From: Gracilimonas sp.
Lineage (GTDB): Bacteria; Bacteroidota; Rhodothermia; Balneolales; Balneolaceae
Direction: 5' to 3'
Length of the DNA stretch: 64,000 nucleotides
Assembly (NCBI RefSeq): GCF_017641085.1
Contig: NZ_JAEPPI010000003.1
Coordinates: forward strand, 62,001-126,000
Part shown: positions 40,047-63,921 of the stretch, piece by piece
How positions within the stretch are numbered: the stretch's first letter is position 1
Layout: each line of letters starts with the position of its first letter
Program-made: the position numbers and the translations under genes
The notes under the pieces: model-generated
The model's database searches: none
What the model saw: only the letters and a program-made list of their open reading frames with translations
Told to the model about the DNA's origin: nothing

Positions 40047-40059
40047 GTTTTTTTGTATT

Positions 40060-40146
40060 AAGCAATCAGCCGTCAGCTATCAGCTTTCAGTTTTTATTCG
40101 ATACCGATAAAACTGAAAGCTGAAGTCTGTTAGCTGACAGCAATTA
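40060..40146. repeat. Hairpin spacer R1
   Basis: Lies between P2 and the ATPase. AGCTTTCAGTTTT pairs exactly with AAAACTGAAAGCT around a short loop; outer words CGTCAGCTATCAG and CTGTTAGCTGACAG also pair. Nearly identical over its whole length to R2. Confidence 0.88.
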
Positions 40147-40147
40147 T

Positions 40148-42499: not shown

Positions 42500-42513
42500 A
42501 ATCTTTTAGTACT

Positions 42514-42600
42514 AAGCAATCAGCCGTCAGCTATCAGCTTTCAGTTTTTATTCGATACCGGTAAAACTGAAAGCTGAAGTCTGTTAGCTGGCAGCTATTA
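42514..42600. repeat. Hairpin spacer R2
   Basis: Lies between P3 and P2. It differs from R1 by only a few bases over ~85 bp, including one in the loop, although the neighbouring permease genes are clearly diverged. Confidence 0.88.
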
Positions 42601-45066: not shown

Positions 45067-45079
45067 AGTATATAATTTT

Positions 45080-45164
45080 GAGCTTTCAGCCGTCAGCTAT
45101 CAGCCTACAGTTTTAACGAGATCGGTAAACTGTAAGCTGAAGCCTGATAGCTGACAGCTATTAT
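45080..45164. repeat. Hairpin spacer R3
   Basis: Lies between P4 and P3. The inner stem is CAGCCTACAGTTT facing AAACTGTAAGCTG. Relative to R1 a T-A pair has become A-T on both arms, a compensatory change, with one C-A mismatch elsewhere. Confidence 0.85.
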
Positions 45165-47618: not shown

Positions 47619-47631
47619 GGTATTTAATTTT

Positions 47632-47722
47632 GAGCTTTCAGCCGTCAGCCGTCAGCTATCAGCTTTAAGTTTTATCGAGATTGATAAACTGTAAGCTGAT
47701 GTCTGATAGCTGACAGCTATTT
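47632..47722. repeat. Hairpin spacer R4
   Basis: Lies between P5 and P4. It has a duplicated CAGCCGT word at the left arm and two mismatches in the inner stem, so it is the least perfect hairpin of the family. Confidence 0.8.
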
Positions 47723-50307: not shown

Positions 50308-50313
50308 GTGAGG

Positions 50314-50395
50314 TTAGCCGGCAGCTATCAGACTTCAGCTTTCAGTTTATTCTCTATGGATTTAAACTGAAAGCTGATAGCTGTCTGCTGAGAGC
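50314..50395. repeat. Hairpin spacer R5
   Basis: Lies after the P6 stop. CAGCTTTCAGTTT faces AAACTGAAAGCTG, with further pairing of CAGCTATCAG and CTGATAGCTG-like words. It is followed on the left by the dyads of site 2. Confidence 0.85.
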
Positions 50396-56251: not shown

Positions 56252-56323
56252 GGTTTTAGGTGTTAGGTTTTAGTGGTTCCCAGATGGGCACACTAAAACC
56301 TAACACCTTGCACCTAAAACCTA
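56252..56323. repeat. Palindromic spacer with GTTTTAGGTG words, copy 1
   Basis: GGTTTTAGGTG and TGTTAGGTTTTAGTG on the left face CACTAAAACCTAACACC and CACCTAAAACC on the right. It lies between P7 and the glycosidase gene and is close in sequence to 58900-58974. Confidence 0.82.
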
Positions 56324-58899: not shown

Positions 58900-58974
58900 T
58901 AGGGTTTTAGGTGTTAGGTTTTAGTGTGTCCATCCAGGCACCACTAAAACCTAACACCTTGCACCTAAAACCTA
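58900..58974. repeat. Palindromic spacer with GTTTTAGGTG words, copy 2
   Basis: Nearly identical to 56252-56323 in its arms, with a different loop. It directly follows the P8 stop and precedes the dyads of site 3. Confidence 0.82.
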
Positions 58975-61356: not shown

Positions 61357-61408
61357 AGTTCTCCTTTGTTATTGATTGTGGGCAAGCTTCCTTACATACT
61401 TGCAGGCC

Positions 61409-61470
61409 TCTGCTTTCAGTTTAAATCCGGAAGGGTAAACTGAAAGCTGACAGCTGTCGGCTGAAAACTA
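61409..61470. repeat. Hairpin spacer R6
   Basis: Lies between the second ATPase and P8. GCTTTCAGTTTA pairs with TAAACTGAAAGC around a short GC-rich loop; CAGCTGTCGGCTG follows. Confidence 0.85.
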
Positions 61471-62160
61471 TTACACATGAAACCCTTCCTGCATATTCTC
61501 AGTCACTACGTGGCCGTCAAACAGATGAATTACACGACGAGCGTAGTCGGCATCATGAGGAGAGTGGGTTACCATCACGATGGTGGTGCCGGCTTCGTTA
61601 AGTTCAGCCAAAAGTTTCATCACTTCATCGCCGTGATCCGAATCCAGGTTACCGGTAGGCTCATCGGCGAGGATCAGTTTGGCATTTGCTACTACAGCAC
61701 GGGCAATGGCAACGCGCTGTTGCTGACCACCGGAAAGTTGTTGCGGAAAGTGATTGCGTCGGTGCATCATTCCCATTCGGTCGAGCGCCGTTTCCACTTT
61801 CTCTTTGCCTTCGGCGGAATCAACTCCGAGATAGAGCAGTGGCAGTTCTACATTTTCAAATACCGTGAGCTCATCAATCAGGTTAAAGCTCTGGAAGATA
61901 AATCCAATATTCCCTTTTCTGAGCTGGGCTCTTTCTCTTTCAGAATGAGTAGAGATCTCATGTCCTAAAAAGTGATATTCACCATCAGTTGGGTTATCCA
62001 AAAGTCCCATAATATTCAACAAGGTAGATTTCCCGCAGCCTGAAGGCCCCATTATGGCTACAAATTCACCCTCTTTGATTTCGAGGTTCACGTTGCTCAA
62101 CGCAGTCGTTTCCACTTCTTCAGTGGTATATACTTTCTTAAGGTTTTTTGTTTGAATCAT
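61471..62160 (-). CDS. ABC ATPase, LolD/MacB type
   Basis: This 229-aa ATPase has all canonical motifs: Walker A GPSGCGKST, Q-loop FIFQSFNL, signature LSGGQQQRVAIARA, Walker B LILADEPTGNLDS and the His switch MVTHSPHD. It lies between the HlyD-like adaptor gene and P8, so it probably energises P8 and perhaps the whole permease series. The S23 gene is inserted on the opposite strand between it and the adaptor gene. Confidence 0.92.
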   Translation of the reverse strand: MIQTKNLKKVYTTEEVETTALSNVNLEIKEGEFVAIMGPSGCGKSTLLNIMGLLDNPTDGEYHFLGHEISTHSERERAQLRKGNIGFIFQSFNLIDELTVFENVELPLLYLGVDSAEGKEKVETALDRMGMMHRRNHFPQQLSGGQQQRVAIARAVVANAKLILADEPTGNLDSDHGDEVMKLLAELNEAGTTIVMVTHSPHDADYARRVIHLFDGHVVTENMQEGFHV

Positions 62161-62229
62161 GGTAGTAAGGTTTAGGTTGTCGGTCTTTTTTAAAATTTTT
62201 TGTAAAGAATTTGTTTTTGAGTGCTCTTA

Positions 62230-62660
62230 CTGTGTAAGCTGTCAGCCAACAGCAGTCAGCTTACAGGTATTCAATTCAAGGATTACTCATGAGAGATTTT
62301 AAAACATTATCAGTTTGGCAAAAAAGTCATGTATTGGCTTTATCTATCTATAACTCGACGGCATCTTTTCCTAAAGAAGAATTGTACGGGCTTATAAGCC
62401 AAATGAGGAGATCAGCTTCGTCTATCCCAACTAATTTAGCTGAAGGATGTGGAAGAAATACCCAATCTCAGCTGGCCCACTTCATAAATATTGCTTTGGG
62501 ATCAGCATCAGAGCTTCAATATCAACTGATGCTGGCCAAAGATCTGGGCTTTGTTACCGATCATATTTTCAAAGAACAATCAAATAAAGTAACAGAGGTA
62601 AAGCGAATGCTGACCTCATTTCATCAAAAAGTGCTGGCTGATAGCTGATGTCTGTACGCT
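62230..62660. mobile_element. Hairpin-framed S23 element (candidate)
   Basis: The S23 gene is framed by R-family words. Upstream, TGTAAGCTG and CAGCTTACA form a hairpin. In addition AGCTGTCAGCCA (62237-62248) pairs with TGGCTGATAGCT (62635-62646) through one G-U pair, so the ends can close over the whole gene. The right arm includes the last codons and stop of the S23 gene. The same words make up spacers R1-R6. Confidence 0.55.
62289..62648 (+). CDS. Four-helix-bundle S23/IVP family protein
   Basis: This 119-aa protein belongs to the 23S-rRNA-intervening-sequence (S23, IVP) family: an N-terminal LSVWQKSHVLALSIY, the central RRSASSIPTNLAEGCGR motif and SASELQYQLMLAKDLGF. The family forms four-helix bundles related to Avd of diversity-generating retroelements and is often encoded inside hairpin inserts of 23S rRNA; the function is not established, nucleic-acid binding being likely. 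Here it is chromosomal, on the strand opposite to the adaptor-ATPase operon it interrupts, and framed by the hairpin words found between the permeases. No 23S rRNA gene is near. Confidence 0.88.
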   Translation: MRDFKTLSVWQKSHVLALSIYNSTASFPKEELYGLISQMRRSASSIPTNLAEGCGRNTQSQLAHFINIALGSASELQYQLMLAKDLGFVTDHIFKEQSNKVTEVKRMLTSFHQKVLADS

Positions 62661-62664
62661 AAAA

Positions 62665-63921
62665 CTATTCCAAAACCAGCACTTCATTATCCCCAAACGT
62701 ATCATAACTGGAGGTAATCACTTTTTCTCCGGGCGATACTCCGCTCAGTACTTCAAAATATTCAGGATTCTGCCGGCCGAGTCTGATATCTCTGCGATAG
62801 GCCTTTCCTTCACTTTCATTTACAACAAATACCCAGTTGCCGCCGGTAGTTTGATAAAACCCACCTCTTGGAATCTGAACCGCACTGGCCGATTCCCCCA
62901 GCTCAAGACGTATTCTCACTGTTTGTCCCCGGCGCAGGCCTTCCGGTGCTTTATTCACAAATTCCATATCCACTTCAAACTGCCCGTTGTTAATGACGGG
63001 ATAAATTTTTGTAATCACCAGCTCGTGCGATTGCCCGTCAAAAGGGAAAGAGCCCCGGAGCCCCTGCGTTATTCGCGATAAGTGATATTCATCAATGGCT
63101 ACCCGAACTTTGTAACCATCCATGATATCAACCTGACCAATACGCTCACCGGAAGAAATGGACTGCCCCTGGTTTAATTCAATGGTGCTCAATTGACCCG
63201 AAATAGGTGCCGTAACGGATAGGTTATCCAGGATTTGCTGAACGGCTTCCAGATTCTGAAACATTCTGTCTTCGGAATTATTAAGCTGCCTCAGCTGCGT
63301 AATCGTTTGAATGGAATCCTTCTTATAGGATTCGTAGGTCAATTCGTAGCGCCGTTTCTGATACTCATAATTCTCCTTTGTGGTCTGGAATTCTTGTTCA
63401 GAAATCAGATCCCGTTCAACCAGCTTTTTCTGACGATCATACTGCGACTTTAAAATTTCCATTTGGGATTTGGCACTTGCCAGCTGATCCTGAAGCTGCA
63501 GAGTATTCTGTTCCAGGTTTAATCTTGAGTTGCGCACGTTATTGATTTGATCGTAGAGCCCCGAAGTTTGCTGCATCACCTGAAGCTGCAGCCCGGAATT
63601 AGTGAGGGTCAGGATGGTATCGCCTTCCTCAACCATCGTTCCGGATTCAAGAAAAACTTCCTGCACCACGCCGCCTTCAATGGCATCAAGGTAGATGGTT
63701 TGAATAGGCTGAACCGTTCCCGTTACCTGTATAAACTCCTGAAAGGTGTCTTCCTGTACGGTTGCGATGGTTAGTTTTTCTCTTTCCACATTCAACGTAG
63801 ATCGCACATCCATAAACCAAAATGCATACACGCTTAAGCTTGCAAAAGCGAGAACGCCTGCAATCATAAGGAAGCGTTTTAACGTCCAGGTTTTCTTTTC
63901 AATTTTTCGATCCATTCCCAT
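62665..63921 (-). CDS. HlyD/MacA-like periplasmic adaptor
   Basis: This 418-aa protein has an N-terminal membrane anchor (FLMIAGVLAFASLSVYAFW), a lipoyl-like half (GTVQPIQTIYLDAIEGGVV), a long coiled coil (~115-215, NVRNSRLNLEQNTLQLQDQL onward), the second lipoyl half (LSVTAPISGQLS) and beta-barrel and membrane-proximal domains. It links an inner-membrane MacB-like permease to an outer-membrane channel. It is upstream of the ATPase and P8 on the same strand, interrupted by the S23 gene. The start lies 79 bp from the window edge; its promoter is not visible. Confidence 0.92.
   Translation of the reverse strand: MGMDRKIEKKTWTLKRFLMIAGVLAFASLSVYAFWFMDVRSTLNVEREKLTIATVQEDTFQEFIQVTGTVQPIQTIYLDAIEGGVVQEVFLESGTMVEEGDTILTLTNSGLQLQVMQQTSGLYDQINNVRNSRLNLEQNTLQLQDQLASAKSQMEILKSQYDRQKKLVERDLISEQEFQTTKENYEYQKRRYELTYESYKKDSIQTITQLRQLNNSEDRMFQNLEAVQQILDNLSVTAPISGQLSTIELNQGQSISSGERIGQVDIMDGYKVRVAIDEYHLSRITQGLRGSFPFDGQSHELVITKIYPVINNGQFEVDMEFVNKAPEGLRRGQTVRIRLELGESASAVQIPRGGFYQTTGGNWVFVVNESEGKAYRRDIRLGRQNPEYFEVLSGVSPGEKVITSSYDTFGDNEVLVLE

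Follow-up and report, generated by a model that had tools for sequence, protein, structure and literature searches.

S23 genes bracketed by inverted arrays of about five clade-specific words: candidate selfish palindromic elements with gene-free satellite hairpins

Introduction

What is an S23 gene doing inside a transporter operon, antisense to its neighbours and with inverted repeats at either end? S23, or 'four helix bundle', proteins are spread over many bacterial phyla and to our knowledge have no known function. Some intervening sequences (IVS) of 23S rRNA genes, in Leptospira and Coxiella, encode S23p and are regarded as possibly mobile and selfish, and as far as we know these IVS have gone unexplained for more than 30 years. 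Intergenic arrays of heptanucleotides have likewise been noted repeatedly, and we know of no cognate protein for them.

We addressed the question from a 64-kb window, the whole stretch of DNA that was analysed, which belongs to a genome designated G000 here, and extended the analysis to S23 loci of its relatives and of other bacteria. The answer we lean towards, with rather more confidence than doubt, is that the S23 gene is the autonomous form of a selfish hairpin element, that a ring of S23 proteins binds the five-word arrays of its own element, and that hairpins without a gene are its satellites.

Results

The S23 gene of the window (Table 1) matches Pfam 23S_rRNA_IVP (PF05635) with an E value of 4.9e-39, and a Pfam search gave no domains beyond PF05635/bAvd and no Y1 transposase domain. 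It lies between an HlyD-type adaptor gene and an ABC ATPase gene of a permease operon, the adaptor and ATPase genes of an earlier note on this DNA, and it is antisense to both. The pairing arms which that note had reported are also present, with the words AGCTGTCAGCCA from 62237 and TGGCTGATAGCT from 62635: the arms, 62237-62251 and 62632-62646, are 15 nt long, 87% complementary and spaced 380 nt apart. The left array stands just upstream of the start codon, in the S23 leader, and the right array overlaps the end of the coding sequence together with the stop codon (TGA, 62646-62648), which that note had placed inside the right arm and which does overlap it.

Table 1. Positions of the features discussed, counted from the first letter of the window.
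Feature	Positions	Strand	Details
S23 (23S_rRNA_IVP / four helix bundle) gene	62289..62648	+	119 aa, PF05635
ABC transporter ATPase gene, S23 neighbour	61471..62160	-	
HlyD-type adaptor gene, S23 neighbour	62665..63921	-	
Promoter-like motif, upstream of S23 gene	62200..62231	+	TTGTAAAGAATT-N11-GCTCTTACT
Left array	62237..62271	+	five AG-phased heptamers: AGCTGTC AGCCAAC AGCAGTC AGCTTAC AGGTATT
Right array	62633..62660	-	four inverted heptamers, read on the - strand: AGCGTAC AGACATC AGCTATC AGCCAGC
Local hairpin inside left array	62233..62265	+	-15.6 kcal/mol, z -3.0
Satellite hairpin	61400..61470		AGC word; in permease/ABC gap
Satellite hairpin	50313..50395		AGC word
Satellite hairpin	47619..47722		AGC word
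Satellite hairpin	45067..45164		AGC word; five heptamers per arm
Satellite hairpin	42500..42600		AGC word
Satellite hairpin	40047..40147		AGC word

Taken singly, the arm pairing of this copy is not beyond chance: its own arms align with a score of 20, and mismatched left/right pairs have a median of 18 and a 95th percentile of 23. Comparative evidence across S23 genes was therefore sought. Orthologues of the window gene in G008 and G007 reach own-arm scores of 40 and 41, and orthologous S23 genes at this locus keep the same word in their flanks. The window genome carries 14 S23 genes and its sister genome G001 carries 12; among the 14, own-arm pairing exceeds the 95th percentile of mismatched pairs in 11, the own partner is the best pairing partner in 10, and the words mostly differ from one gene to another. 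Flanks that pair, as the earlier note had expected of relatives, are accordingly found.

For the wider comparison 80 S23 loci were drawn from over ten phyla, and 78 of them were usable. In 33 of the 78 the own arms paired at or above the 99th percentile of the mismatched combinations, and in 41 no other partner did better than the own one. The flanks of these loci show sharp peaks at lags of 7, 14 and 21 nt; at lag 7 the values are 0.61/0.60 in S23 flanks, compared with 0.469 in the remaining gaps of these loci and 0.417 after shuffling. Left arrays are mostly of the form (AGNNNNN)n, with the reverse complement on the right, which gives a strand polarity of AG in the 5' arm and CT in the 3' arm. 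At least four AG in a chain with 7-nt spacing are found in 39/78 left flanks and in 31/78 right flanks, as against 5.2% of control strands. Their length peaks at five: chains of four, five and six number 9, 22 and 2 on the left in the 78 loci, and 7, 26 and 2 in the right arms of the loci of the family. No clear period-7 array is seen in 39 of the 78 left flanks, and such loci have perhaps decayed or follow another period; in the S23-B clade (G001/G066) the words recur every 8 nt and not 7, often as five GTG units in one arm. Of the earlier picture of a gene closed in a loop by its arms, the inverted flanks stand, but the key feature is the array, inverted on the other side of the gene and built of about five words of 7 or 8 nt, and not one long stem.

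That the arms share their words with intergenic hairpins proved right, AGCTGWYAGC occurring 12 times in the window where 0.16 would be expected. Within 400 kb of the contig, all intergenic copies of AGCTGxxAGC lie no more than about 22 kb from the window S23 gene, as long hairpins in gaps of the permease/ABC operon, and in nearly all of these AGC satellites each arm contains four to six heptamers in AG phase; satellite counts here and below rest on sampled sequence and not on whole genomes. A bacteria-wide comparison of word enrichment in the 20-kb neighbourhood of S23 genes ranked the own locus best in 9 of 47 cases, with 1 expected. Over-represented 10-mers in 400 kb gave weak matches only, because the words are degenerate and local. 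Genome-wide dispersal of the REP kind was rejected on the clustering of the words near the S23 gene in the 400 kb.

Four S23-bearing relatives yielded 18 period-7 hairpins in 1200 kb and three S23-free relatives none in 765 kb, a comparison that is small and phylogenetically confounded; a stricter count of arrays in part of the same data gave 21 in 800 kb of S23-bearing and 0 in 366 kb of S23-free sequence. Some of the sampled relatives that carry S23 have few satellites; G021, for one, had no period-7 hairpins in 240 kb. Two further observations concern the distribution of words and genes. The hairpins at 56258-56308 and 58909-58959 carry another word, AGGTGTTAGGTTTTAG, which resembles the arms of an S23 gene on contig C1 (L003). 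Neither query protein matched an S23 in small-genome genera of the same family (g4 and g29; G012 and G096-G105), while most larger genomes had a match.

The word follows the clade of the S23 protein. Members of the S23-A clade (at least 59% identity) carry AGCTNTCAGC/AGCTATTAGC words across genera; in the adjacent clade the words are AGTNNTGAGT or AGANNTAAGA, and in S23-B they are GTGTTA words. A few members of the compared clades lack clear arm pairing. Among non-syntenic pairs, mean arm similarity was 10.8 below 30% protein identity, 19.9 at 60-70% and 30.2 at 70% or more (6 pairs), and the correlation of arm similarity with protein identity in pairs without shared neighbours was reached by none of 500 permutations. 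The hlyD/ABC gap holds 11 of 13 S23-A cassettes; in G084 and G050 an S23-A gene sits at unrelated sites and has kept the AGC word. Residues His14, Leu18, Cys54 and Tyr78 (window numbering) go with C as the third base of the word (AGC), and this apparent co-variation, from a residue/word scan that ignores phylogeny, is only a lead.

Operon genes of G000 and G001 are about 95% identical at the nucleotide level, and in the hlyD/ABC gap G001 has a different S23 gene, in the opposite orientation, with the word GTGTTTAAGTG and an 8-nt period. The hairpins in four aligned orthologous gaps of G001 bear the word of the G001 S23 gene. The 821/817 and permease/ABC gaps are the clearest, as identity between the two genomes resumes at the gene ends on both sides; in the other two aligned gaps one neighbouring gene differs between the genomes. 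The switch of word is incomplete: one gap keeps its two hairpins, the AGC loop being in opposite orientations in G000 and G001, and one unswitched gap retains a GGTGTTAGG hairpin. A second swap in situ was found in the gap of L002/L016, and since G005 keeps the G000 type there, G001 is the derived one. S23-B also occupies the hlyD/ABC gap in another genus (G066), so that exchange of cassettes by homologous recombination between relatives is possible. The same-site swaps could stem from such ordinary recombination, but it does not by itself account for the satellites. The same cassette thus occurs at different sites and different cassettes at one site, as would be looked for in a mobile element; neither target duplication nor excision was seen in the compared S23 sites. 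The loop of the satellite at 50313-50395 is inverted relative to G001, as if its arms had recombined.

The promoter-like motif upstream of the window gene is present, as TTGTAAGGAATT-N11-GCTCTTACT, at 25 sites of the genome in all (loci L326-L350), with 0 for the reversed control, and it precedes 7 of the 14 S23 genes, that of the window included. Other sites precede recA, ssb, recF, radC and comEC-, yifB- and recQ-like genes, and also an integron/phage-type integrase, Y1 transposases, GIY-YIG and GxxExxY genes. Pfam confirmed recA, ssb, a RecF/SMC-type ATPase, radC, a ComEC N-terminal domain and ChlI, as well as one integrase, one Y1, one GIY-YIG and PDDEXK_3; the recQ-like and remaining genes were named by eye. 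The motif was present in 13 of 34 S23 loci of the order and 19 of 54 of the family, and in 0 of 78 elsewhere. Around the other motif-bearing small genes of the window genome (Y1, GIY-YIG, GxxExxY) period-7 brackets were absent, and Y1 genes elsewhere in that genome have other inverted repeats that are not of period 7. To judge from these gene neighbours, the motif may mark a putative recombination or DNA-uptake programme and looks like an undescribed Balneolaceae regulon. It differs from the SOS motifs reported for Bacteroidetes, GGA-N5-TCC and CTAA-N5-TTAG (PMC8565304).

A structural model of the window protein (pLDDT 96.8) confirmed the four-helix-bundle fold. It matches the solved S23 homologues 2gsc and 2rld with TM scores of 0.94 and 0.83, each of these entries containing five chains, and it matches Avd (4dwl, TM 0.78) and chains of the DGR ribonucleoprotein 8ube. 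Avd, a protein of diversity-generating retroelements (DGR), is a pentamer and works on nucleic acid. By analogy with the five-chain homologues, the window protein is probably a pentamer too. The five-heptamer arrays and the five-chain homologues together lead us to infer one word per S23 subunit.

Discussion

Because words are clade-specific and hairpins in nearby gaps carry the same word, the S23 protein probably reads its words and forms part of a DNA element that spreads. A small palindromic element would spread through intergenic gaps, with the S23 gene as its protein-coding form, and the ends of the element would be inverted arrays of about five 7-nt words (8-nt in some clades), in which AG is nearly invariant and the other letters are specific to the clade. 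S23 would be a ring of five four-helix bundles, as in its solved relatives, each subunit reading one word and the ring wrapping (AGNNNNN)5 in single-stranded DNA or RNA. Satellites would be the hairpins that share the word but have no gene. Movement would proceed through host recombination or the replication of single-stranded DNA. Host functions are invoked because S23 is without a known catalytic domain (no nuclease or transposase domain is known in it), and dependence on host recombination would fit the promoter motif common to recA, ssb, recF, radC and comEC. The earlier note had raised the possibility of a small autonomous hairpin element with a protein that acts upon its hairpins, and this idea stands up to the comparisons made here (arms of relatives, coupling of word to protein, swaps at fixed sites, local satellites); binding of the hairpins by S23 and movement of the element are its conjectural parts. 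Such a ring has a counterpart in TRAP, in which 11 subunits form a ring that wraps (G/U)AG repeats. The proposed mode is similar in that an oligomeric ring would read AG-containing repeats, one per subunit and at regular spacing, but TRAP has an unrelated fold, 11 subunits and a shorter spacing, and is an analogy only.

The analogy also leads to the strongest alternative, in which the S23 ring binds RNA as TRAP does and has no mobility. It would bind the arrays in its own mRNA and the hairpins in the operon gaps, autoregulating, stabilising or partitioning transcripts, while words and protein co-evolve. The binding step is common to this account and to that of a selfish element; what it leaves out is spread. 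The word does follow the protein, an array does stand just upstream of the S23 start codon, and the hairpins lie in intercistronic gaps and fold well as RNA, with z scores of -6.6 to -8.4 for three full satellites. It should be considered, however, that several gaps took up an unrelated word along with a foreign S23 gene between genes that are about 95% identical, of which stepwise co-evolution is an unlikely source. Further, the window gene runs antisense to the operon, it shares its promoter motif with genes for recombination and DNA uptake, and one S23 lineage has kept its own word at unrelated sites. We regard regulation without mobility as unlikely, though worth keeping in view.

A more doubtful possibility is that S23 and the hairpins are passive neighbours: the heptad hairpins would arise by slippage or as generic host repeats, S23 would persist among them, and the match of word to protein would reflect joint inheritance of a gene with its flanks and no recognition. 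Heptanucleotide arrays have indeed been reported with no link to S23, for example the TAACTGA arrays of Beggiatoaceae (PMC4679880) and the Geobacter 'class 3' sites with five heptamers each (PMC2700814), and in our own data period-7 arrays occur away from S23 in 25 of 370 other gaps. Slippage nevertheless fails to explain inverted arms, the AG/CT polarity and the peak at five, and it fails equally for satellites that carry the local word and for concerted change of word; the 765 kb of S23-free relatives, moreover, held no period-7 hairpin. We consider this account improbable.

The idea of a transplanted 23S-type IVS, with the arms as one stem excised by RNase III and S23 as an inert passenger, has a precedent in Coxiella, where RNase III cuts a 28-bp terminal stem and S23 protein is apparently not produced (PMC4990558), and shares with our locus the PF05635 protein and an open reading frame within inverted repeats, but it is very improbable given that none of 183 S23 loci has a credible 23S signature (single weak, short matches only), that the left array of the window gene folds on itself, that many S23 genes are intact open reading frames, those of the window family with the promoter-like motif, and that gene-free satellites bear the same word. 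The likeness to 23S IVS drawn in the earlier note thus holds for the protein family and the inverted-repeat bracket and not for descent from a relocated 23S IVS, and a classical 23S IVS was rejected; an Rfam search of the 64-kb window found only a tRNA. The S23 element differs from IVS also in lying between protein genes, in its arms of about five clade-specific words, in its gene-free satellites and in the promoter motif of recombination genes.

Two other known systems come close to the selfish hairpin element that we favour. In REP/REPIN-RAYT systems each RAYT protein lineage has its own palindrome, and here too a small gene is accompanied by matching gene-free intergenic palindromes that are specific to the S23 lineage. 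The differences are that S23 has no Y1 transposase domain, on which Pfam result identity with RAYTs was rejected, that its words form short periodic arrays, and that the satellites are local and not genome-wide. With DGRs the likeness is that of fold and pentameric Avd, but no match to a reverse transcriptase (RVT_1) was found in G000 or G001 despite their 14 and 12 S23 genes, and a partnership of the DGR type was rejected for these two genomes. As each of the nearest kinds (IVS, RAYT, DGR) fails a defining test, we place the S23 hairpin element in a category of its own; a conservative reader could place it among IVS-like elements.

The heptanucleotide arrays of Beggiatoaceae, Geobacter and cyanobacteria (STRR) resemble the S23 arrays in being largely intergenic 7-nt words, five per site in Geobacter, and differ in that no cognate protein was identified there, whereas the S23 words are inverted, bracket a gene and follow its clade. 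In the literature searched, mostly outside subscription journals, we found no report linking S23 to heptanucleotide arrays or inverted-repeat words, nor did papers on Avd/S23 pentamers or on damage motifs of Bacteroidetes connect S23 with them.

The wider proposition, that S23 proteins across bacteria are word-reading rings, the pentamer of each clade having its own set of five words of 7 or 8 nt, and that rings and gene-free hairpins of the matching word jointly make up unrecognised selfish palindromic elements tied to host recombination or DNA uptake, seems to us evenly poised between right and wrong. If it is true, S23 rings would be the binding proteins so far lacking for some of the heptanucleotide arrays in the literature. 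Should the coupling of word and protein be causal, one hypothesis would join S23 function, the 23S IVS and the heptanucleotide arrays, and would account for the concerted change of intergenic hairpins between close relatives. It would also predict that the pentamer reads five words, with a specificity that can be swapped along with the word, and would offer a natural source of modular rings that bind single-stranded DNA or RNA.

One further observation concerns the hlyD/ABC gap of G013 (L056), where more than 20 tandem TGAACAT heptamers stand in place of the S23 cassette.
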